Positions 1,549-59,303 of a DNA stretch of 64,000 nt are shown here, piece after piece (within the stretch, counting starts at the first letter, position 1; every line of letters begins with the position of its first letter). The stretch is taken from positions 1-64,000 of the IMG/VR virus record IMGVR_UViG_3300007734_000761; one strand, given 5' to 3'. Source of the stretch: a virus. The translations under genes were made by a program, and so were the position numbers. The notes below the pieces were generated by a model, which ran no database searches, was not told the DNA's origin, and was given only the letters and a program-made list of their open reading frames with translations.

Positions 1549-1583
1549 ACTATACCATACAAAGTAAAATTTAAAAGGCAAAA
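1549..1583 (-). promoter_or_regulatory. class A promoter
   Basis: TTTGCC (1577-1582) and TATGGT (1554-1559) are separated by 17 bp. The ATG at 1548 follows the -10 by 5 nt, so the predicted transcript start falls on the start codon. Confidence 0.7.
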
Positions 1584-2344
1584 TATTTTTTAAGTTTCTC
1601 TTCAGCTTTAATTTTAGTCAAACGAACACTTTCTTTATGTATACCTAATTCGTCTGCTATTTCTTTAATGTCCCAATCTTTACCATCTAAACCATAATAC
1701 ATAGTAAGCACTTTATTTTCACGTTCACTTAATTTTGAAAACAACTTATCAATAAGATCCTTATTAGAAACTTCTAAGTCAGGAATCAAAGCATTAGTAT
1801 TTTTAATTACGTCAAGTAGAGTACTAGTTTCATCTTCACCACTAATTGATTGTTGTAGATCAATTGTATTAGGTAAGTTTGACATTTCACTGTCTAATTC
1901 ACCTTTACCATCATTCAATTTTTTAATTTGTCTGTGTAGTTCTTGAGCTATGTTAATTGGCAGTCGAATAGTTCTAGCGTTTTCATAAATACAAGCCAAA
2001 ATACCTTGTTTAATCCAATGGTAACTGTAAGTAGTAAATCTATTTCCACTTGACCAGTCAAAGTTTTCAATAGCATTGATTAGACCTAAATTACCTGCTT
2101 GAATTAAATCAACCATATCTACACCTGCAAATTGAAACTTATTTACTTCTTTAATTACATAGCGCAAATAACCCTTTACCATTTCATCTTTCAGTTGTTT
2201 CTTTTCATCATCAGTAGTAAGTGGATCTAACATTTTACTTACAATTTCCTTTTCACGTTTTGGGTTCATTTGAGGCATTTTAGTAAGCTCCTTACTGTAC
2301 AGTTTAAAACTGTCATCATTTATCATTAGTCTTTTCTTACTCAT
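1571..2344 (-). CDS. phage sigma-70 family RNA polymerase sigma factor
   Basis: A 257-aa RpoD-like factor. Region 2 spans residues 58-128, including the core-binding DLIQAGNLGLINAI stretch and the -10-recognising aromatic segment (NRFTTYSYHWIKQGI). A short region-3-like linker follows. Region 4 spans about 203-252, with a helix-turn-helix (DIKEIADELGIHKESVRLTKIKA) for -35 contact. No anti-sigma domain or region 1.1 is present. It has its own class A promoter with the ATG at the predicted start site. It is an early-type gene and a candidate for redirecting host polymerase to class A or class B phage promoters; which of these is inference. Confidence 0.93.
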   Translation of the reverse strand: MSKKRLMINDDSFKLYSKELTKMPQMNPKREKEIVSKMLDPLTTDDEKKQLKDEMVKGYLRYVIKEVNKFQFAGVDMVDLIQAGNLGLINAIENFDWSSGNRFTTYSYHWIKQGILACIYENARTIRLPINIAQELHRQIKKLNDGKGELDSEMSNLPNTIDLQQSISGEDETSTLLDVIKNTNALIPDLEVSNKDLIDKLFSKLSERENKVLTMYYGLDGKDWDIKEIADELGIHKESVRLTKIKAEEKLKKYFAF

Positions 2345-3770: not shown

Positions 3771-4946
3771 TTATTTCAAAATCAACTGACTTAATTCTTT
3801 ATCCATCAACATCATTTGGTACTTTTTGGTATTAGCATTGTAAATGCCTTTAACCATATTAAACATGATGTCTTTAGTAAATATGTCACTCTTAACAAGT
3901 GCTTTGATTCGTTCAATAGTAGTTTTTTCTACTTTACTATCAGTAGCGAATCGTTCAAGATAGTTAACTAAACGAGTTGAAATAGTAGCTGCAATGTCAG
4001 CTCGATACTTATCATCATCACCAATGATACTCTTAAGTGTACCCAAAACATACTTTTCATCTTGATCCATAATGTTTTGTGGTGAAATGATTTTGTCTAG
4101 TTTATTATTAATAAACATAGTAAACATAGAACTAAATTCACTACCAACTGAACCTTCACCAATCATCTGGATCAAAGGCAAGCTGTCTTCAAACGACTTA
4201 ATTGAACTAATTGAGTTAAAGAACATAACTGCACTACGGCTGTTTACTTCTTTGTTAATCAACTCTGGGTTCATCAACATAAAGTTAATACAACGACCAT
4301 CAATGTCATTATGTTCAGCCCATTTACCCCAACAATCCATGTCAAATTTCAAATTAACACTAATGAAACGGGTTTTCTGAGCATTATCAATACTATTAAC
4401 CAAATAATCACCATTATCAGGGTTAGCAGTCAAAATGATATGCCAATCTTTAGGCAATGTCCAGCTAATATATTGCTGACGATCAATCAACTCCATTACA
4501 GCTTGAATAAAACGACTATCAGCTCGGTTCCAGTCATCAAGCAACAACACACCACCATTTGATTTATTAGCAATCCATTCAGGTGGACAATAACTCATTC
4601 TGTTTTTACCTGTGGTTTTATAACCTTCAGTACGAACATCTTCAAGTGCTGATTCGTCTACATACTTAGTAGTTGCACCATCAGTAACTTCAAATTGACG
4701 AATTGGAAAACCAACCAAGTCACCAATCTCTTCGATTTGAGCTAGGTTCAATTTAACAAAATTCAAATTCAGTTCTTCAGCTAGTTGAACAATACTACTT
4801 GTTTTACCAATACCTGATTCACCAATAACTTCTACTGCTACAGGACCTTTACCATTTTCTTGCAAATGGCGATTGTTGCTAATGATGTGATTCAAAAAAT
4901 CTTTCAATTCATTAGGATTAATGGAAACTAAATCTTTTCTACTCAT
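3771..4946 (-). CDS. MoxR/CobS-type AAA+ ATPase
   Basis: A 391-aa AAA+ ATPase. Walker A (GESGIGKT) is at residues 42-49. Walker B (GGVLLLDDWNRAD) is near residues 131-143, followed by a sensor stretch (HIILTANPDN). The 'R-A-D' after Walker B and the 'TANP' sensor are typical of the MoxR and CobS branch. These ATPases usually work with a VWA-domain partner to insert metals or remodel proteins, and such a partner is encoded three genes downstream of it in coordinate order (7038-8336). The two are probably functionally paired. Many T4-like phages carry a CobS-like ATPase whose substrate is unknown. Confidence 0.85.
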   Translation of the reverse strand: MSRKDLVSINPNELKDFLNHIISNNRHLQENGKGPVAVEVIGESGIGKTSSIVQLAEELNLNFVKLNLAQIEEIGDLVGFPIRQFEVTDGATTKYVDESALEDVRTEGYKTTGKNRMSYCPPEWIANKSNGGVLLLDDWNRADSRFIQAVMELIDRQQYISWTLPKDWHIILTANPDNGDYLVNSIDNAQKTRFISVNLKFDMDCWGKWAEHNDIDGRCINFMLMNPELINKEVNSRSAVMFFNSISSIKSFEDSLPLIQMIGEGSVGSEFSSMFTMFINNKLDKIISPQNIMDQDEKYVLGTLKSIIGDDDKYRADIAATISTRLVNYLERFATDSKVEKTTIERIKALVKSDIFTKDIMFNMVKGIYNANTKKYQMMLMDKELSQLILK

Positions 4947-4981
4947 AATTTATCTTTTTATCTTTTTATATTTCTTATTAT

Positions 4982-5015
4982 ACTATACTATACAACTTAC
5001 CTTTTAAAAGGCAAA
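4982..5015 (-). promoter_or_regulatory. class A promoter of the AAA+ gene
   Basis: TTTGCC (5010-5015), 17 bp, TATAGT (4987-4992) with a repeated TATAGT half. The leader to the ATG at 4946 is about 35-40 nt. Confidence 0.72.
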
Positions 5016-5031
5016 AAAGTTTTTTAAAATT

Positions 5032-6027
5032 TTACTTGAAAATTACATCTACGATTTCAGTATTTTCTTGATTAGTCATTTTACTGAACTTAGCATTCAA
5101 GTTATCAACAATATATTTCTTAATACTAGCAGCATAATCAGTCTTACCAAACTTGTTCCACATACTCATACCATACACTTCCCAACCTTGATTCCACCTA
5201 ATTTTATTTACTTCTAAATATGTCAACAATGCTTTGAAGTTTTTACTTGTATATTGACTCATTGCATTAAATCTACTTGTGTGGGTGTAACAGTAATTCA
5301 TTAACAAACTAATTTTGAATACGTTTTCATCACTTAGATTTACGTTACTCAACATTTCAATTCCCAATTTGAATGTGTCTGTGTCTTTAGCCACCAACAT
5401 TCCTCTCAATGTTTCATAAATTTCATCATCTAAATCAATTCCATCTTTATTCATTGTTTGAGTCAAACAATCATCATAAACGATAGTTGCTTTACTACCA
5501 TCTAGACTCAAAATAAAATCAATAGATTCAACTATTTTAGTATTTCTATAACCATTGATTACTTGTCCTGTCAATGTAGTACATTTCTTTTCTAAATCAA
5601 AATACTCTTGATCATTACTATTTGATGATTTCAAATAAAATGTACGATCAGTAGATTTAATTTTTTTCATTTCATTAGCAGGAACAATTTGAAATGATTT
5701 AGTTTCAAGATTTTGTAAATACTTAATTGTGTCTCGTCGAACAAATACTATATCTGCTTTACTTAACAATGTGACTTTTTTGCAATTATTATCAGTCAAG
5801 AACTCTTTCAATTTAGTTCTAGGCACATCACTGTTTTTGTCAATCAACACATTTGTTTTAGGGTTGATTGTAGGCATTTTGTCTTTAATTTTACTAATAA
5901 TAGCATTCATTTTAGCTGTGTCTTTACTGTCAATAACTGTAGCAGCGTTCCATTGTTGGTCAAAGACTTGCCATTCAATTGTTCTCCAACCACCTCGACT
6001 CAATGGATAAATGTTTTGTGTTTTCAT
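5032..6027 (-). CDS. hypothetical protein, 331 aa
   Basis: Unrecognised soluble protein between the AAA+ ATPase and its likely VWA partner, so it may belong to the same system. A helical segment at about residues 207-240 (LRGMLVAKDTDTFKLGIEML) resembles a segment of the protein at 19974-20468, pointing to a shared module. The N-terminal half looks alpha/beta. It has its own class A promoter. Confidence 0.75.
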   Translation of the reverse strand: MKTQNIYPLSRGGWRTIEWQVFDQQWNAATVIDSKDTAKMNAIISKIKDKMPTINPKTNVLIDKNSDVPRTKLKEFLTDNNCKKVTLLSKADIVFVRRDTIKYLQNLETKSFQIVPANEMKKIKSTDRTFYLKSSNSNDQEYFDLEKKCTTLTGQVINGYRNTKIVESIDFILSLDGSKATIVYDDCLTQTMNKDGIDLDDEIYETLRGMLVAKDTDTFKLGIEMLSNVNLSDENVFKISLLMNYCYTHTSRFNAMSQYTSKNFKALLTYLEVNKIRWNQGWEVYGMSMWNKFGKTDYAASIKKYIVDNLNAKFSKMTNQENTEIVDVIFK

Positions 6028-13467: not shown

Positions 13468-14196
13468 TTAAAGTTTTTTTAATTTTAATTCTTCAATTAC
13501 ACAACTAGCCATTTTTCTGTGTCCTGAAGCTGTCATGTGACATAAGAAATCACCACAGTCAGTTCTTGAAATACAATGTGTTTTAATTACAACAGCTCGT
13601 TGAATTGAATCGACTAACATTTGTTGAAAACGAGCATAGCGTTGTGGATAACCTTGATAGGCTTGTCTTGTTCCTACATTAATACATGTTTTAGGATCAA
13701 ATCCTGTAATAACAATAGGTGTTACTTGATTTTTGTTACAAATGTCAACTATAGTTTGAATGTTTTTTACTGATTTTATTGGTGGTCTGTTTCCAGCCAT
13801 GTCATTTGCTCCACCATAAATAAAACAATAGTCAAAGTATTCTGTAACTTTAGCTTTGGCAACACCAACCATCCAAGTTGTTTGTTGTCCACCAACAGCT
13901 GTGTTTAAGTAAGTCATTCCTGTTTGTTTACAAACCTGATGTTGCCATCCGTAATCTGCAGCAGTATGTGAATCACCAATAAATAAAGCTTTTTTACCTC
14001 TTACAGAGGTTAAAGTTACAGGAATCACTTTAGGCGTGTCTATAACATTTGGTTTTACTGTGTCAAAAGCTATAAAAGCTGGCGACACACTAAGTGGAAG
14101 TTGACTTGCTAAAATTGAGGTGTAAATAATTGCTCCCCCAAACACTAATACTAGTGACGTAACTATAATATTTTTCATAAATTTAATTAGTATCAA
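13468..14196 (-). CDS. SGNH/GDSL-like hydrolase, membrane-anchored or secreted
   Basis: A 242-aa protein with an N-terminal hydrophobic segment (about residues 10-30: signal anchor or signal peptide). It then has an SGNH hydrolase fold: block I FIGDSH with the catalytic Ser, a glycine in the TAVGG stretch, block III YGGANDM with the Asn, and block V DFLCHMTASGH with the Asp-x2-His pair. Such enzymes remove acyl groups from sugars, peptidoglycan or lipids. Next to fibre-type genes it may de-acetylate surface polysaccharide; that is inference. The start overlaps the sigma-like gene by 4 nt. Confidence 0.82.
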   Translation of the reverse strand: MILIKFMKNIIVTSLVLVFGGAIIYTSILASQLPLSVSPAFIAFDTVKPNVIDTPKVIPVTLTSVRGKKALFIGDSHTAADYGWQHQVCKQTGMTYLNTAVGGQQTTWMVGVAKAKVTEYFDYCFIYGGANDMAGNRPPIKSVKNIQTIVDICNKNQVTPIVITGFDPKTCINVGTRQAYQGYPQRYARFQQMLVDSIQRAVVIKTHCISRTDCGDFLCHMTASGHRKMASCVIEELKLKKL

Positions 14197-14924
14197 AGTC
14201 CTTTCATTAACTTAGGTAAAATTTCAGTTCTAAATTTAGCTCTAATTCCATTTAAGCCTTGAACTGTAGGTGTTTTACCAGTTATTTGTCCAATAATTTT
14301 ACCTACCTCAGCAGCTGTCAATTCTTGGTATCTAGGATCTGTTGTCCATTTTAAAGCATATTTGTGAACTGGATTTTTAATTCCGGTTTCTAATTGTTTT
14401 AATCGTTTTTGAAACACTTCATTGTCCATCATTCCGTCAATGCGTTCTTGAGCTCCCATTTCACCCACAACATCAGCTACAGTTAATGCATCACCTTCTT
14501 TACTTGTTCCAATTGGTTTGTCTAATGAAATTGCTTTTCTTCTTGCTTTTTCTTTACCATAGTTGATAGTAGCATTTCTGATAGCCATTCTAGCATATGC
14601 TCCATATTCATTAGGCTTAGTCCAATCAAATTTTCTACTAGCACGAAGCATGGCTTCACTAGCATAACTAATGAAGTCGTCTACAGGAACACCATTACTA
14701 GCTGCTCCTACTTCTTTATACCATAAAGGCATAAGACGCAAATAACTTGAAATAACTCGTCTTTTTAAGTCTTCTTTAGTTTTGTTATCTACATTAGGAT
14801 CGTTTATTTGTTTTCTTATCGAAACACGTTCTTCACTAGACAATGGATTAAACTCGTCTCCTCTAACAGCCTTAACATATTCGTTCCAAGTAATTTCTAA
14901 TAACAGCTGTTTTAATGTAGTCAT
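14193..14924 (-). CDS. sigma-70-like factor with N-terminal capsid-targeting-like peptide
   Basis: A 243-aa sigma-like protein. Region 2 is recognisable at about residues 55-135 (YLRLMPLWYKEV, then FISYASEAMLRASRKFDW and the YGAYARMAIRNATINYGK segment). A divergent region-4-like helix-turn-helix lies near 195-240 (LTAAEVGKIIG followed by a basic helix). The N-terminus MTTLKQLLLE|I matches the T4 prohead protease rule (L-x-E) at residue 10 and the pattern of four other proteins here. Both a class B and a class C promoter precede it, so late expression is likely. It may be a late sigma factor, or one packaged and injected with the DNA; the latter is inference. Confidence 0.8.
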   Translation of the reverse strand: MTTLKQLLLEITWNEYVKAVRGDEFNPLSSEERVSIRKQINDPNVDNKTKEDLKRRVISSYLRLMPLWYKEVGAASNGVPVDDFISYASEAMLRASRKFDWTKPNEYGAYARMAIRNATINYGKEKARRKAISLDKPIGTSKEGDALTVADVVGEMGAQERIDGMMDNEVFQKRLKQLETGIKNPVHKYALKWTTDPRYQELTAAEVGKIIGQITGKTPTVQGLNGIRAKFRTEILPKLMKGL

Positions 14925-14930
14925 ATATAA

Positions 14931-14940
14931 TATAAATATT
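14931..14940 (-). promoter_or_regulatory. class C promoter motif
   Basis: AATATTTATA on the minus strand, 6-7 nt upstream of the ATG of the sigma-like gene. Confidence 0.6.
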
Positions 14941-24534: not shown

Positions 24535-24797
24535 TGATAAATATACTTAACGCCCATACGAGTAATTACTCTCAATGTAGAATCACTGTATTTTTTACCA
24601 TCTAGCAAAAGATTACCTTGATAGTCAATAGCTGGGCTTGCTGTTTCTAGGTCAATGTTAGCTGGTACAGCTGGTTTGACTTTAAATTCATGGAAATAAT
24701 AACCAATTCCAAATCCGGCAACCATAGTAGTAACTACAATAGCTGCATTGAAAAATCTGCTTACAAATTTTTGTACTTGTTCTTTATTAATTTTCAT
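24531..24797 (-). CDS. single-pass membrane protein, 88 aa
   Basis: Basic N-terminus and one transmembrane helix (about residues 14-33, with a glycine-rich AGFGIGYYF run), followed by about 50 periplasmic residues. Position next to the SLT enzyme suggests a partner such as a spanin- or holin-like protein, but no signature proves it. Confidence 0.65.
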   Translation of the reverse strand: MKINKEQVQKFVSRFFNAAIVVTTMVAGFGIGYYFHEFKVKPAVPANIDLETASPAIDYQGNLLLDGKKYSDSTLRVITRMGVKYIYQ

Positions 24798-24813
24798 AAC
24801 TTAATTTTTATAT

Positions 24814-24842
24814 ATTATAATAAAAAGATTTTATTTTACCAA
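24814..24842 (-). promoter_or_regulatory. class B promoter
   Basis: TTGGTA (24837-24842), 17 bp, TATAAT (24814-24819), upstream of the membrane protein gene at 24531-24797 and reaching into the 3' end of the gene before it. Confidence 0.65.
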
Positions 24843-25232
24843 ATTTTCCCAATAATTTTTAGCGTGAGCTGGATCAAACGGAGTCATAGGGTTTAGATTT
24901 TGAAAACAAAATACTAATAAACTATTGTATGCTTCCTTAAGACGTTCTGCTTCAGTATTGTTAGCTAAATTTTTAATTTTATTTTCTAATATTTCTTTTT
25001 CACTTTGAAGTTGTTCAATTTGAACTTTTAATTGTTCATTAAAAGGATTTTCAAAAACTTTTTCAACTGTTTGAGGTTTAGTAATTAAACTATTAATTGT
25101 TTCATTTTGGATACGAATAGTTTCCTTTAATGATTCAATAGTGTCTAAAAAGATTTCATCACTTTTTAGTACTTTTTCTTCTTGAGGTTGAAGGGGTTTT
25201 TTGTGACTCTGTAACCAATTTATTAATTTCAT
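24831..25232 (-). CDS. coiled-coil protein, 133 aa
   Basis: Long coiled coil over about residues 20-100 with repeated Leu/Ile/Glu/Lys heptads (LKVQIEQLQSEKEILENKI). The first in-frame ATG is at 25256, but I favour 25232 (MKLINWLQ). Either start overlaps the preceding gene by more than 70 nt. Unrecognised. Confidence 0.6.
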   Translation of the reverse strand: MKLINWLQSHKKPLQPQEEKVLKSDEIFLDTIESLKETIRIQNETINSLITKPQTVEKVFENPFNEQLKVQIEQLQSEKEILENKIKNLANNTEAERLKEAYNSLLVFCFQNLNPMTPFDPAHAKNYWENLVK

Positions 25233-25527
25233 ATTCTTTTTGTAATTCTTGAACAATTATACATTTTTCATATTCTTCCATAGCAATAAAAGTTTTCATG
25301 CAACTTTCTAATGCTGTAGGCCAGTCTTTTTGATCTGTGTAAAGTCTAAAAATGTCTTCTTCTTCTTCAATTTCAACATCACATACACTGACTTTTTTAT
25401 TTCCTTTTTCCATTCCTCTCTGTATGGCTTCTAGTAAGCAATCTACTAATTCTAGTTGGTCAAAATTAGTTATTTGCAATTGAAATTCATCGAGTGATTT
25501 AAATTTAATTGTTTTTATTGCTTTCAT
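25159..25527 (-). CDS. hypothetical protein, 122 aa
   Basis: N-terminal strand-helix (TIKFKSLDEFQLQITNF) and acidic EIEEEEDIFRLY. It is helical toward a basic C-terminus (SRRKSTKK). Its 3' end overlaps the coiled-coil gene. No family recognised. It has a class B promoter. Confidence 0.65.
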   Translation of the reverse strand: MKAIKTIKFKSLDEFQLQITNFDQLELVDCLLEAIQRGMEKGNKKVSVCDVEIEEEEDIFRLYTDQKDWPTALESCMKTFIAMEEYEKCIIVQELQKEYEINKLVTESQKTPSTSRRKSTKK

Positions 25528-26200: not shown

Positions 26201-26608
26201 CTATTTTTCATCTGGACCTGCAGGTAAATCTTCGTCTCCTGCTTCTGCTTTAGGAACATTACCACCAATAATATTTTTCATAATATATTGAGACAATGAA
26301 TCTAAAGGAATAATAAAACCTATTGCTGTTAATTTATCTTCGAAGTCCTTGTCACGATCAACTATAATATCGTACTTGGAAAATTTTCTTTGTAAGTAGG
26401 CTGCTAAATCGTTTCCAACTTCATTCAACCGAGTTCCGTCCAATTGGGAACTGTCCTTAGGATAAAATTGCATTCGAACACCTACTTTTGTTGGGTTTTT
26501 ATTTACGTCAAACTTTACAGACCAATCGTATCCACCAAATTTAGTTGAATAACGAACTGGTCCAGTTATATTTGAAACTTCATTTAATATATTAGTTAAA
26601 CTAATCAT
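26201..26608 (-). CDS. hypothetical protein with capsid-targeting-like N-terminus, 135 aa
   Basis: Starts MISLTNILNE|V, matching the L-x-E prohead-cleavage rule at residue 10 and four other proteins here. The rest has a beta-strand pattern (YDWSVKFDVNKNPTKVGVRM) and an acidic C-terminus. A class C motif precedes it. It could be an internal virion protein; function unknown. Confidence 0.65.
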   Translation of the reverse strand: MISLTNILNEVSNITGPVRYSTKFGGYDWSVKFDVNKNPTKVGVRMQFYPKDSSQLDGTRLNEVGNDLAAYLQRKFSKYDIIVDRDKDFEDKLTAIGFIIPLDSLSQYIMKNIIGGNVPKAEAGDEDLPAGPDEK

Positions 26609-42154: not shown

Positions 42155-42895
42155 TTAAGGTTTAAAAGCGTCTTTAAACGTAAATAAGGTTTTATAAATT
42201 TTAGAAGTTTGAGGAATTATTTTATTACCATATGGGATTTTTTCTCCTGTTAATGGATCTTTAGTATTATTTTTATCACGATTAACAGCATCAAAGTCAG
42301 CTTTAAGTGAATCAGGTAAACCAGAAGCCATTAATGACTGGAATGCGTATGGAGAATACATTATAGTTCCATCTTCTTCGTAGTACTGTAAATTATCATT
42401 AGAAAATAAATCATTTGCTAAGCTACGTAAGTCTTTTACTTTAACCTTACCTGGCATGACAGGGGCAATTTGAGGAGAAGATTTAGCAGCAACTGATGCT
42501 CCTTTATTTTTAAATGAATTTATGTCAGCCTTAGCTGTTTCACGTTTTATTTTTTCAGCTTCTGCTTTAGGTACAGGATTAGGTGTTAATTTAGTAACAG
42601 TAAAAAGTTTTTGTATAGCTTGGTTGTTGTTTGCTAATTCATCAGATAACTTTAAAATGTATCTATACATGTAACCATCATTACTAGTATCTGTTGTTGG
42701 AATAACTTTACCACGTTTTTTAAGATCAATAATTTTAGAAATAAGTGAACCTAATACTTGTGATTCAGGAAGGATATTTACTGTGTATCCATTCATGTCT
42801 AAGTCGTTTGCATGTACACGATAAGTATTCCACAACGGATCTTTAGGATTAGAAACTCTAGCAGCTTCTGGTAATAAAGATGATAATGTTATCAT
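42155..42895 (-). CDS. hypothetical protein with capsid-targeting-like N-terminus, 246 aa
   Basis: Starts MITLSSLLPE|A, an L-x-E site at residue 10 like the sigma-like and LRR proteins. The rest is soluble with a lysine-rich central linker (PKAEAEKIKRETAK) and a Pro/Gly-rich stretch. A class C motif is 4 nt upstream. A packaged internal protein is plausible; no enzymatic motif seen. Confidence 0.68.
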   Translation of the reverse strand: MITLSSLLPEAARVSNPKDPLWNTYRVHANDLDMNGYTVNILPESQVLGSLISKIIDLKKRGKVIPTTDTSNDGYMYRYILKLSDELANNNQAIQKLFTVTKLTPNPVPKAEAEKIKRETAKADINSFKNKGASVAAKSSPQIAPVMPGKVKVKDLRSLANDLFSNDNLQYYEEDGTIMYSPYAFQSLMASGLPDSLKADFDAVNRDKNNTKDPLTGEKIPYGNKIIPQTSKIYKTLFTFKDAFKP

Positions 42896-54344: not shown

Positions 54345-55946
54345 TTAGAACCCCATATTCATCTCAGGACTTTCTTCTCTTTTTTCGTCAAATACTACCG
54401 ACTCACTAGTCAAAATAGTACTTGCTACAGAAAGAGCATTTTCAAGAGCTACTCTTGTTACTTTCACTGGATCTAACAATCCACTTTCATATGCGTCTAC
54501 AATAACTCCTGTTTTAGCATTATACGTGTTGTTAGGTGATTCAATTAACTTTTCAATCATACTATCAGTTAAATTTAATCCAGCATTAGACAAGATTTTC
54601 TTAAAAGGAGAACTGATACTTGACTTAACAATATCTTCTCCTAAAGTAACTCCTTCTAATTCAGCAGCAATGTTATACAAAGGCCATCCACCACCTGGAA
54701 TTACTCCTTCTGCAATAGCTGCTTTAGTAGCATACAAAGCATCTTCTACTCTGTCTCTTTTTTCTTTAATTTCAAGATCACTATTACCTCCTACACTAAT
54801 AATAGCAACACCACCACTCAAACGACCTAAACGTTCTTGTAACTTTTCACGTTCAAACATTGATTGGGCGGCATCGATTTGGACTTTCAATTCTTCAGCG
54901 CGAGATTCTAAGTCTTCTGCATTACCTTTACCGTCTACAATGGTTGTAGTGTCTTTAGTTACTGTAATCATACGACAACTTCCTAATGCTTGGTTCAACG
55001 CTTCACCACTAATTTTTTCTAGTTTATGACCTTTTTTAGGACTCAAAACAACACCACCAGTCAAAATAGCCATGTCTTCAAGAAGCAAAGTTCTGCGATC
55101 ACCATAATCAGGAGCTTTAACAGCACATACTTTAATTGTGCCTCTTGCTTTGTTTAACAACATCACAGCTAAAGCTTCTTCACCAAACTCTTCAGCAATA
55201 ATAACTGCAGGTCTATTTTCACCACTAGCTTTTTGTAATACAGGAACTAAATCGGCAGCAGCGGCAATAACACCATCATACAACAAAATCATAGGACTTT
55301 CCAAAACAGCTTTCATTGTATTGTTGTCTGTAACAAAGTAAGGTGACTTATAGCCTCTGTCAAACTGCATACCTTCTACAATGTCCAATACAGTTTCGCC
55401 TGTTTTACTAGACTCAATAGTTACAATTCCTTCATAACCTACTTCTTTAATAGCTTCACTAATTAAATAACCAATTTCTTCATCGTTGTTACCTGAAATT
55501 GTAGCAACATACTTAATTTGGTCGTCACTTGTAACTGGTTGGGCTAAATCTTTAAGTTTTTCAATTACATTTGAAACTGTAGATTCCATTTGTTTTTTTA
55601 CTTCTACTACATTTACTCCTTTATTGATTAAATTAATTCCTTCTTCAATCATGGTAGTAGCAAGAAGTGTACTAGTAGTTGTACCATCTCCAGCTTCGTT
55701 AGCTGATTTAATACTAACTTGTTTTACAAGTTGTGCTCCGATGTTTTCAATATCATCGTCTAATTTATGAAAGCTTTTTGCAACAGTTACACCGTCTTTA
55801 GTTGCTGTAATAGTACCGTCTTCTTTTTGAATCAATACGTTTCTACCACCAGGTCCTAAAGTTGAACTAACACTGTTGTTAAGTTTTTTAATTCCGTCAA
55901 GTAATTTACCTTTTAATTCGTCTCCAAATAATGTTTTTGTGCTCAT
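54345..55946 (-). CDS. groL: chaperonin GroEL
   Basis: A 533-aa group I chaperonin with the full ATPase signature: STLGPGGRNVLI, ATKDGVTVA and DGTTTSTLLATTMI. The apical domain (YKSPYFVTD, AEEFGEEAL) and the late GGVAIISVGG region are present. The C-terminus lacks the usual GGM repeats and ends ESPEMNMGF. Phage GroELs help fold capsid or tail proteins. It directly follows groS. Confidence 0.95.
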   Translation of the reverse strand: MSTKTLFGDELKGKLLDGIKKLNNSVSSTLGPGGRNVLIQKEDGTITATKDGVTVAKSFHKLDDDIENIGAQLVKQVSIKSANEAGDGTTTSTLLATTMIEEGINLINKGVNVVEVKKQMESTVSNVIEKLKDLAQPVTSDDQIKYVATISGNNDEEIGYLISEAIKEVGYEGIVTIESSKTGETVLDIVEGMQFDRGYKSPYFVTDNNTMKAVLESPMILLYDGVIAAAADLVPVLQKASGENRPAVIIAEEFGEEALAVMLLNKARGTIKVCAVKAPDYGDRRTLLLEDMAILTGGVVLSPKKGHKLEKISGEALNQALGSCRMITVTKDTTTIVDGKGNAEDLESRAEELKVQIDAAQSMFEREKLQERLGRLSGGVAIISVGGNSDLEIKEKRDRVEDALYATKAAIAEGVIPGGGWPLYNIAAELEGVTLGEDIVKSSISSPFKKILSNAGLNLTDSMIEKLIESPNNTYNAKTGVIVDAYESGLLDPVKVTRVALENALSVASTILTSESVVFDEKREESPEMNMGF

Positions 55947-55947
55947 G

Positions 55948-56250
55948 TTATTTTACAATTCCTATAATATCTGTTTCTTTACATACAATAAAATCTTCAC
56001 CATCTACTGAAATAGTTTGTGAACCCATGCGAGGTACAATACATAAATCACCTATACTTACTTCTGATGATTTATAAGCTCCTTGATGGTAATTAAAGGT
56101 TTCACTTACATCTATTACTTCAGCAATAAGACTTTTTTCTTTACCTAAATCAGGTAAGAAAATATTTCCTACCATTTGTTCACTTTCTTCCACCTGTTTC
56201 AAAACAATATGTCCATTGACAGGTTTAATTATTCTTAATTCTGTAATCAT
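55948..56250 (-). CDS. groS: co-chaperonin GroES
   Basis: A 100-aa GroES-like protein: RIIKPVNGHIVLKQVEESEQMVGNIFLPD opens the beta barrel with a mobile-loop-like stretch, and IGDLCIVPRMGSQTISVDGEDFIVCKETDIIGIV closes it. The gene is one base upstream of groL, so both halves of the chaperonin are phage-encoded, unlike T4, which supplies only gp31. Confidence 0.88.
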   Translation of the reverse strand: MITELRIIKPVNGHIVLKQVEESEQMVGNIFLPDLGKEKSLIAEVIDVSETFNYHQGAYKSSEVSIGDLCIVPRMGSQTISVDGEDFIVCKETDIIGIVK

Positions 56251-57878: not shown

Positions 57879-59303
57879 TTAAGAAATAACTTTACCAGCA
57901 GTTCCAGGAGGTACTCTGTCAATTTTTGTTCCTCTGATGTCTAGTGTTCCTCCTACTTTTAAACCAGGAGGTAAAGTTAAATCAGGGTTATTAGAAATGT
58001 TGAAGTCACCTGTTATAGTTAAATTGCTAGGAAGTGTTTTAACACCTGTTGATGAAATGTTAGCATTACCTTGAATAGTAGGTCTAGCGGTTTCAGGAAT
58101 ATTAATGTTTCCTAAAATTCTAATCATTAGCCAGTTTTTGTAAGCTTCTCCAGGTAAAGTTTCTTTACTAAGAAGACTATTACCTTCATTGTCTTTTTTA
58201 TTTGCTAAAAATTTCATTAAAGAAATGTAAGGGAATTTTAACGCTTGTTTAGCTCCAGCTTCTGTACCATCACTAGTTTTCAATAAACCTGTGTTAGAAT
58301 CGTAATAAACTAAATTGTTACTTTGATCAGCTCCTGTTTTGGCATCTATGTAATATGCAGGTCCCACTTTATAAATAGGGAAACCATCAACTACGTCTTC
58401 TTTAAATTTACTTAAGTCTAAGTCAAAAGCCATTGATTTGGAAGGTATTCTACCTTCTTTATCTAATAAGAATTGTAAAAATTCTTTTTGAACAGGACTA
58501 TTATAAGATCTAATTTCTGAATCAGATTCATCTTTTAACTGACCTGACTCATAGTGTAATTGATATTGTCTTCTTGTATTCCAGTTTTTAAATAAGTAGT
58601 AAGGACCATTAGATAAGTAACTATTGAACATACCTGTGTTTCTAGTACACCAAGTTACTCTATATCCTGATTTAGGTGCTTCTTCTTTTTCTTTACTAGG
58701 AGTAAATCGTTGTTCTTGGTCTCCACATCCTGTTATTTCTAAGTATTTTCTATAACAAGCCTCGTCTCCTTTACATTTTTGTGGAACTTTATAAACTGTA
58801 AAACCTGAAGGTGTTTGTCCTAAAATAGTAATAGGAGCAATAAAAGCTCCTCTAAGTTTTTCAGGTCCAGCTTGAACTTCTTCAGCACCACCTTCAATTT
58901 TTGCTTTGGCAACACCTATAATGTTTTCAAAGTCTCTTAAAGTCTTATAAAGGTTAATGTCTGGTTGAAAACCATCTACATTTAATTTTTTAATTCTTTG
59001 TTTGTTTTTATCAAAGAATGGCAACAATAATTTTACTTCTTCATTGTGACCATCATCAAAGAATCTTTTTCTTTCAGTACGATCTAACTTTACATAGCGA
59101 GGTATTAACCAGTTTAAGTAAGTTCCGTTAGGTGTTTCATCAATGTCTACTAATGCTTTAAACTCTTTTTCACTGATTTTATTTGGATCCATAGAACCCA
59201 TTCCCTTAGGAGCGTCTTTGTCCACTTGTTGAACAAACTTAGTTTTTAACGCTGCTTCTTTTTCAGCCGATAACGCTTCTGCAAGTAAGTCTAGTAATCG
59301 CAT
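57879..59303 (-). CDS. capsid-targeting-like N-terminus, WCTR-motif and leucine-rich-repeat protein, 474 aa
   Basis: Starts MRLLDLLAE|A (L-x-E site at residue 9). A central domain (about 155-310) contains four Cys (CKGDEACYRK, TGCG), then TWCTRNTGMFNSYLSNGPYYLF and YQLHYESGQLKDE, a motif set I recall from uncharacterised large-phage proteins. The C-terminal about 75 residues are leucine-rich-type repeats (VKTLPSNLTITGDFNISNN, then LTLPPGLKVGGTLDIRGTKI). A possible injected effector; function unknown. Confidence 0.68.
   Translation of the reverse strand: MRLLDLLAEALSAEKEAALKTKFVQQVDKDAPKGMGSMDPNKISEKEFKALVDIDETPNGTYLNWLIPRYVKLDRTERKRFFDDGHNEEVKLLLPFFDKNKQRIKKLNVDGFQPDINLYKTLRDFENIIGVAKAKIEGGAEEVQAGPEKLRGAFIAPITILGQTPSGFTVYKVPQKCKGDEACYRKYLEITGCGDQEQRFTPSKEKEEAPKSGYRVTWCTRNTGMFNSYLSNGPYYLFKNWNTRRQYQLHYESGQLKDESDSEIRSYNSPVQKEFLQFLLDKEGRIPSKSMAFDLDLSKFKEDVVDGFPIYKVGPAYYIDAKTGADQSNNLVYYDSNTGLLKTSDGTEAGAKQALKFPYISLMKFLANKKDNEGNSLLSKETLPGEAYKNWLMIRILGNINIPETARPTIQGNANISSTGVKTLPSNLTITGDFNISNNPDLTLPPGLKVGGTLDIRGTKIDRVPPGTAGKVIS

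Follow-up and report, generated by a model that had tools for sequence, protein, structure and literature searches.

The window, i.e. the whole analysed stretch of 64,000 nucleotides, covers positions 1 to 64,000 of an IMG/VR record of 176,311 bp and carries on its minus strand (14193..14924) a gene for a sigma-70-family protein that is probably targeted to the phage prohead by a ten-residue leader of the T4 type. Prohead targeting is supported because the register of this leader recurs on ten unrelated ORFs, the genome contains a gp21-like protease gene, a diverged sigma of a related phage (G001) carries a similar leader, and a late-type element precedes the gene. It is the most economical reading of these observations. 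In the proposed scheme, the leader-bearing gene would be transcribed late, together with the structural genes. By its first ten residues, the product would attach to the prohead scaffold core in the manner of the T4 capsid targeting sequence, and the gp21-like protease of the phage would cut the leader off after Glu10 at head maturation. Packaging and cleavage of the sigma factor are well supported by the sequence, although unproven. The mature protein, from Ile11 onward, would remain in the head with the DNA and be ejected together with it. We infer that the ejected sigma could then bind the host core RNA polymerase and, as infection begins, direct it to phage promoters. The chances are about even that the entire scheme holds, with a cleaved sigma being packaged and injected by means of a T4-type leader and redirecting the host core RNA polymerase from the first minutes on, with no new protein synthesis needed.

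The ORF starts with ATG, and the N-terminus of the 243-aa precursor reads MTTLKQLLLE/ITWNEYV (here and below, the slash marks the predicted cut). This start is credible because a TATTTAT element is found 7 nt before the ATG and the same start is shared by a close relative, L010 (95% identical). The predicted leader MTTLKQLLLE occupies codons 1-10 (14895..14924, minus strand), and a cut of the gp21 type is predicted to follow Glu10 (codon 14895-14897, minus strand); the predicted mature form comprises residues 11-243. In T4 IPIII, residues 4 and 7 have been found to direct targeting, and residues 8 and 10 to be needed for processing (PMC9026906). The sigma leader matches at both the targeting positions 4 and 7 and the processing positions 8 and 10 (Glu), so that cleavage at residue 10 by a gp21-type rule, proposed in the initial annotation, agrees with the full T4 register. 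The L/I-x-E match on which that proposal relied is present; alone it is too weak, as a bare [LI]xE near the N-terminus occurs in 47 of 216 ORFs and is uninformative. The case is carried by the exact register and its repeated use. At the level of sequence, all predictions of the initial annotation that were checked turned out as it expected.

The strict register was fixed from T4 IPIII (hydrophobic residues at 4, 7 and 8, Glu at exactly 10) and applied to all ORFs, which were called piece by piece, so that giant ORFs crossing piece borders were missed and spurious collagen-repeat ORFs included. It was found in 10 of the 216 ORFs of the 176-kb record (record positions 14193, 26201, 42155, 136677, 137099, 137416, 137772, 139377, 145974 and 168019). 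Interior protein positions gave an expectation of 0.31 matches and column-permuted N-termini one of 1.28, with none of 2000 permutations reaching 10; by the permutation null, about one in eight single Glu10 matches could be due to chance. The mature parts of the ten proteins showed no mutual similarity in blastp. Besides the sigma, two of them lie in the window on the minus strand, with leaders MISLTNILNE/V (26201..26608) and MITLSSLLPE/A (42155..42895), and a third protein has a leader one residue shorter, MRLLDLLAE/A (57879..59303, minus strand); all three have the TATTTAT element and no assigned function. Five further Glu10-leader genes, mostly of unassigned function, cluster tightly near the head genes (record 136677-140009).

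Applied to T4, the strict register picks exactly three proteins, IPII, IPIII and gp24, all of which are gp21 substrates that stay in the virion. It misses T4 IPI, whose leader ends later, and Alt, and is therefore specific but incomplete. By the permutation null, the enrichment of Glu10 leaders was not significant in G006, in Flavobacterium phage immuto or in T4 (3 against 1.28 in T4), so the T4 benchmark speaks for precision and not for enrichment. In immuto, a Glu10 leader is carried by two ORFs (24569-24994 and 103366-103806). The residue following Glu10 (P1') is Ile in the sigma and often Val or Ile in the leaders of this phage, and Ala or Ser in the T4 matches.

A search of the rest of the genome for a gp21-like prohead protease, suggested in the initial annotation, was successful: the gene lies at record 126034-126693 (phrog_207, E 4.7e-57), and the stretches GELDHPE and GISSRGMG of its product resemble T4 gp21. 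It belongs to a T4-like head set and is accompanied by genes of the major capsid protein (record 122738-124474, phrog_138), the portal (record 129507-131441, phrog_213) and the terminase (record 131466-133094), as well as by an acidic scaffold-like protein (record 124494-125894) recognized from position and composition, with no family match. Cleavage sites were likewise looked for in the capsid protein, and conserved gp21-like sites were indeed present in its N-terminal region: about 30 relatives keep hydrophobic-x-Glu sites within the first 60 residues of their major capsid proteins, one of these sites being at about residue 60, close to the point at which T4 gp23 is cut (FLTE/A). The local protease plausibly has a T4-like specificity. 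Immuto is the closest cultured relative by the major capsid protein (49% identity); because it infects Flavobacterium, the host is probably a member of Bacteroidota.

The TATTTAT element before the sigma gene (14932..14938, minus strand) resembles a late promoter. TATTTAT occurs on the coding strand, in many cases 2-22 nt before ORFs, and is found within 45 nt of 43 ORFs in this orientation versus 7 in the opposite one. Pooling of six phages placed it before 61 of the 197 homologues of structural genes and before 33 of the 347 non-structural homologues (p 6e-10). It also stands directly before the leader-bearing sigma gene of G001, and it was not found before the RpoD-like paralogues of both phages or before the gp55-like gene of this phage. 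From this distribution, TATTTAT may be interpreted as a late promoter element that would make the sigma available at head assembly. The reverse complement of TATTTAT makes up the core of TATAAATA, the T4 late box. No enrichment of the strict Bacteroidota promoter TTTG-N17-22-TANNTTTG was seen in the window, where 4 copies stand against an expectation of 5.8, or in L008 and L009; this count neither supports nor refutes the need for a delivered sigma.

The major capsid protein of G001 (179.7 kb) is 71% identical to that of this phage. Its sigma-like protein, about 25% identical in the body, begins with MLSLKFILLE/S; the leader has thus been kept while the sigma body diverged. T-even internal proteins have likewise been described as highly diverse, only their targeting sequence being conserved (PMC3012670), and the two phage sigmas resemble them in this respect. 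The leader was absent from all five other sigma-like proteins examined in this phage and G001. These are an RpoD-like second sigma with regions 2 and 4, which lacks TATTTAT as well and serves as an internal control (1571..2344, minus strand), its RpoD-like paralogue in G001 (4329-5081), the probable gp55-like late sigmas of this phage (record 165384-166139) and of G001 (about 166.2 kb), and a small sigma of G001. The leader was not found on the sigma homologues examined from unrelated phages. Searches of IMG/VR and GTDB with the single sequence and a three-row alignment for further leader-bearing sigmas returned only the 95% relative and the G001 protein, which gives two lineages with such a sigma, and none was detected among about 48 further related records (many of them fragments) or, by the same search, in immuto. 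One candidate, L185, was rejected as a sigma fragment match without a leader. A pattern scan for relatives of the RpoD-like paralogue gave none. The leader-bearing sigma was also considered as an ortholog of the gp55-like late sigma of the group and rejected (hhalign probability 2.2%), the gp55-like protein being encoded by a separate gene.

It is doubtful, against this background, that the protein is an ordinary late-made sigma that is never packaged and acts in the same cell, its leader likeness being due to chance or another cause. A chance background of about 1.3 pattern matches per genome and the Ile at P1' would fit such a protein, and the late-type upstream element suits a late-acting sigma equally well. 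However, the leader is kept on the diverged sigma body of G001, the phage already possesses a probable gp55-like late sigma along with the RpoD-like one, and sigma homologues of other phages have no such leader.

Assignment of the protein to the sigma family, as in the initial annotation, was borne out by several searches. Pfam Sigma70_r2 scored 24.1 bits against a cutoff of 24, phrog_351 (sigma factor) matched with E 3.9e-7, and hhalign against a phage sigma profile gave 97.8% probability with coverage to residue 231. A profile of the protein matched PDB entries at 7e-10, all matches listed being sigma factors. The NCBIfam SigK and SigE subfamily models gave 1e-11 and 2e-10, under their curated cut-offs. 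The matches that Foldseek listed for the predicted model (best E 2.8e-3) were sigma factors of RNAP or complexes that contain sigma, which is only supporting because the confidence of AlphaFold, run on three sequences, was low (mean pLDDT 51, below 50 in the C-terminal half). Region 2 spans about residues 51-128 (14541..14774, minus strand) according to Pfam, the PDB profile and the SigA alignment. In the latter it is followed by a second domain made up of the finger and region 4, against SigA residues 258-351. The finger, or region 3.2-like stretch, AISLDKPIG...ALTVADVV (residues 131-153; 14466..14534, minus strand) aligns there with SigA VSLETPIGEEDD.HLGDFIED. A probable region 4 helix-turn-helix at about residues 200-238 (14211..14327, minus strand) is indicated by this second domain and by hhalign; the Pfam region 4 match was weak, below the cutoff, and obtained only in the relative. 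Sigma homology starts near residue 25-37, which places the leader outside the sigma body. With regions 2, 3.2 (finger) and 4, the protein is, by sequence criteria, a diverged member of the sigma-70 family. Of the region 2.2 core-binding signature D..Q.G, the Q and G are not conserved here and are kept in the G001 sigma. Given prohead targeting, injection and real sigma activity appear likely; the activity is favoured by the kept region 2, finger and region 4, while the degenerate region 2.2 weighs against it.

The same features bear on whether a packaged and injected protein might act not as an initiation factor but as a decoy, by inhibiting the host sigma, or as an internal protein that binds DNA. 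The degenerate region 2.2 would agree with this, as would the fast divergence of the sigma (about 25% identity versus 71% for the major capsid proteins), which is like that of T4 internal proteins (PMC3012670). Such a role is nevertheless unlikely, as the protein retains regions 2, 3.2 (finger) and 4 in recognisable form and a mere decoy would not need them. It is highly improbable that the leader only tethers the protein to the prohead core and that the protein is lost, through degradation or expulsion, before the DNA is packaged, with nothing injected, since the T4 proteins with the ten-residue register (IPII, IPIII and gp24) stay in the virion, even though gp21 does degrade T4 core proteins such as gp22 (PMC5694885; T4 record annotation).

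Delivery of a sigma factor in the head would have partial counterparts in known systems. As with T4 IPII and IPIII, a ten-residue leader with hydrophobic residues at 4, 7 and 8 and Glu10 is carried by unrelated, fast-evolving cargo in a genome with a gp21-like protease. Unlike in T4, the cargo here is a sigma, the leader has the form M(I/T)(K/T)LxxLLxE instead of MKTYQEFIAE, P1' is Ile instead of Ala, and packaging is predicted from the sequence. T4 Alt is a packaged and injected ADP-ribosyltransferase that modifies RNA polymerase. The sigma would similarly be a virion-delivered protein acting on the host RNA polymerase, but as a sigma factor and not as an ADP-ribosyltransferase. In N4 and phiKZ-like phages, a virion RNA polymerase starts early transcription. 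Transcription machinery would be carried in the head here too, whereas only the specificity factor would be brought in and the host core enzyme would be needed. The phage sigmas of PHROG 351 and T4 gp55 share the sigma-70 family fold, and the protein matches phrog_351; the examined ones are without the leader. We know of no virion role for T4 gp55. The targeting tag is already known, while a phrase search of the open-access literature found no precedent for sigma factors being packaged or injected, nor for a sigma as cargo of the tag.

If the reading of a packaged and injected sigma is true, it would represent a third and cheaper way of controlling transcription in the first minute of infection, beside the delivery of a whole RNA polymerase or of an injected modifier. 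The T4 capsid targeting tag would then serve this phage group as a general delivery code whose cargo can be read from the genome, and this phage would have about ten candidate injected proteins, among them a zeta-toxin-like kinase. The latter (Pfam PF06414, 4.7e-12; record 145974-146816) has the leader MINLQSLLLE/V, and a similar P-loop protein of G006 begins with MYKLRDIILE/Q.

Several other features were observed. A second common N-terminal leader, M(D/E)NFDLKKFL(I/V)EN, occurs on different proteins of this phage (window 59398-59856; record 148605-149090) and its relatives (immuto 1803-2318 and 118632-118931). The motif RMQxLAGI, often followed by x-x-Glu, is N-terminal in several proteins (record 142379-142726 and 82462-84195; immuto 25061-25456 and 111675-112139) and also forms the extreme C-terminus of the scaffold-like protein (record 124494-125894); it is possibly a core-docking motif. 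At record about 108095-118000, an open frame longer than 3,300 aa consists of collagen-like Gly-X-Y repeats, mostly GTS/GSS. The gene at window 13468-14196, which shares 4 nt with the end of the sigma gene, encodes a GDSL lipase/acylhydrolase-like protein whose N-terminal part contains a hydrophobic stretch. GroEL- and GroES-like frames were recognized by eye at window 54345-56250 and are annotated as such in immuto.
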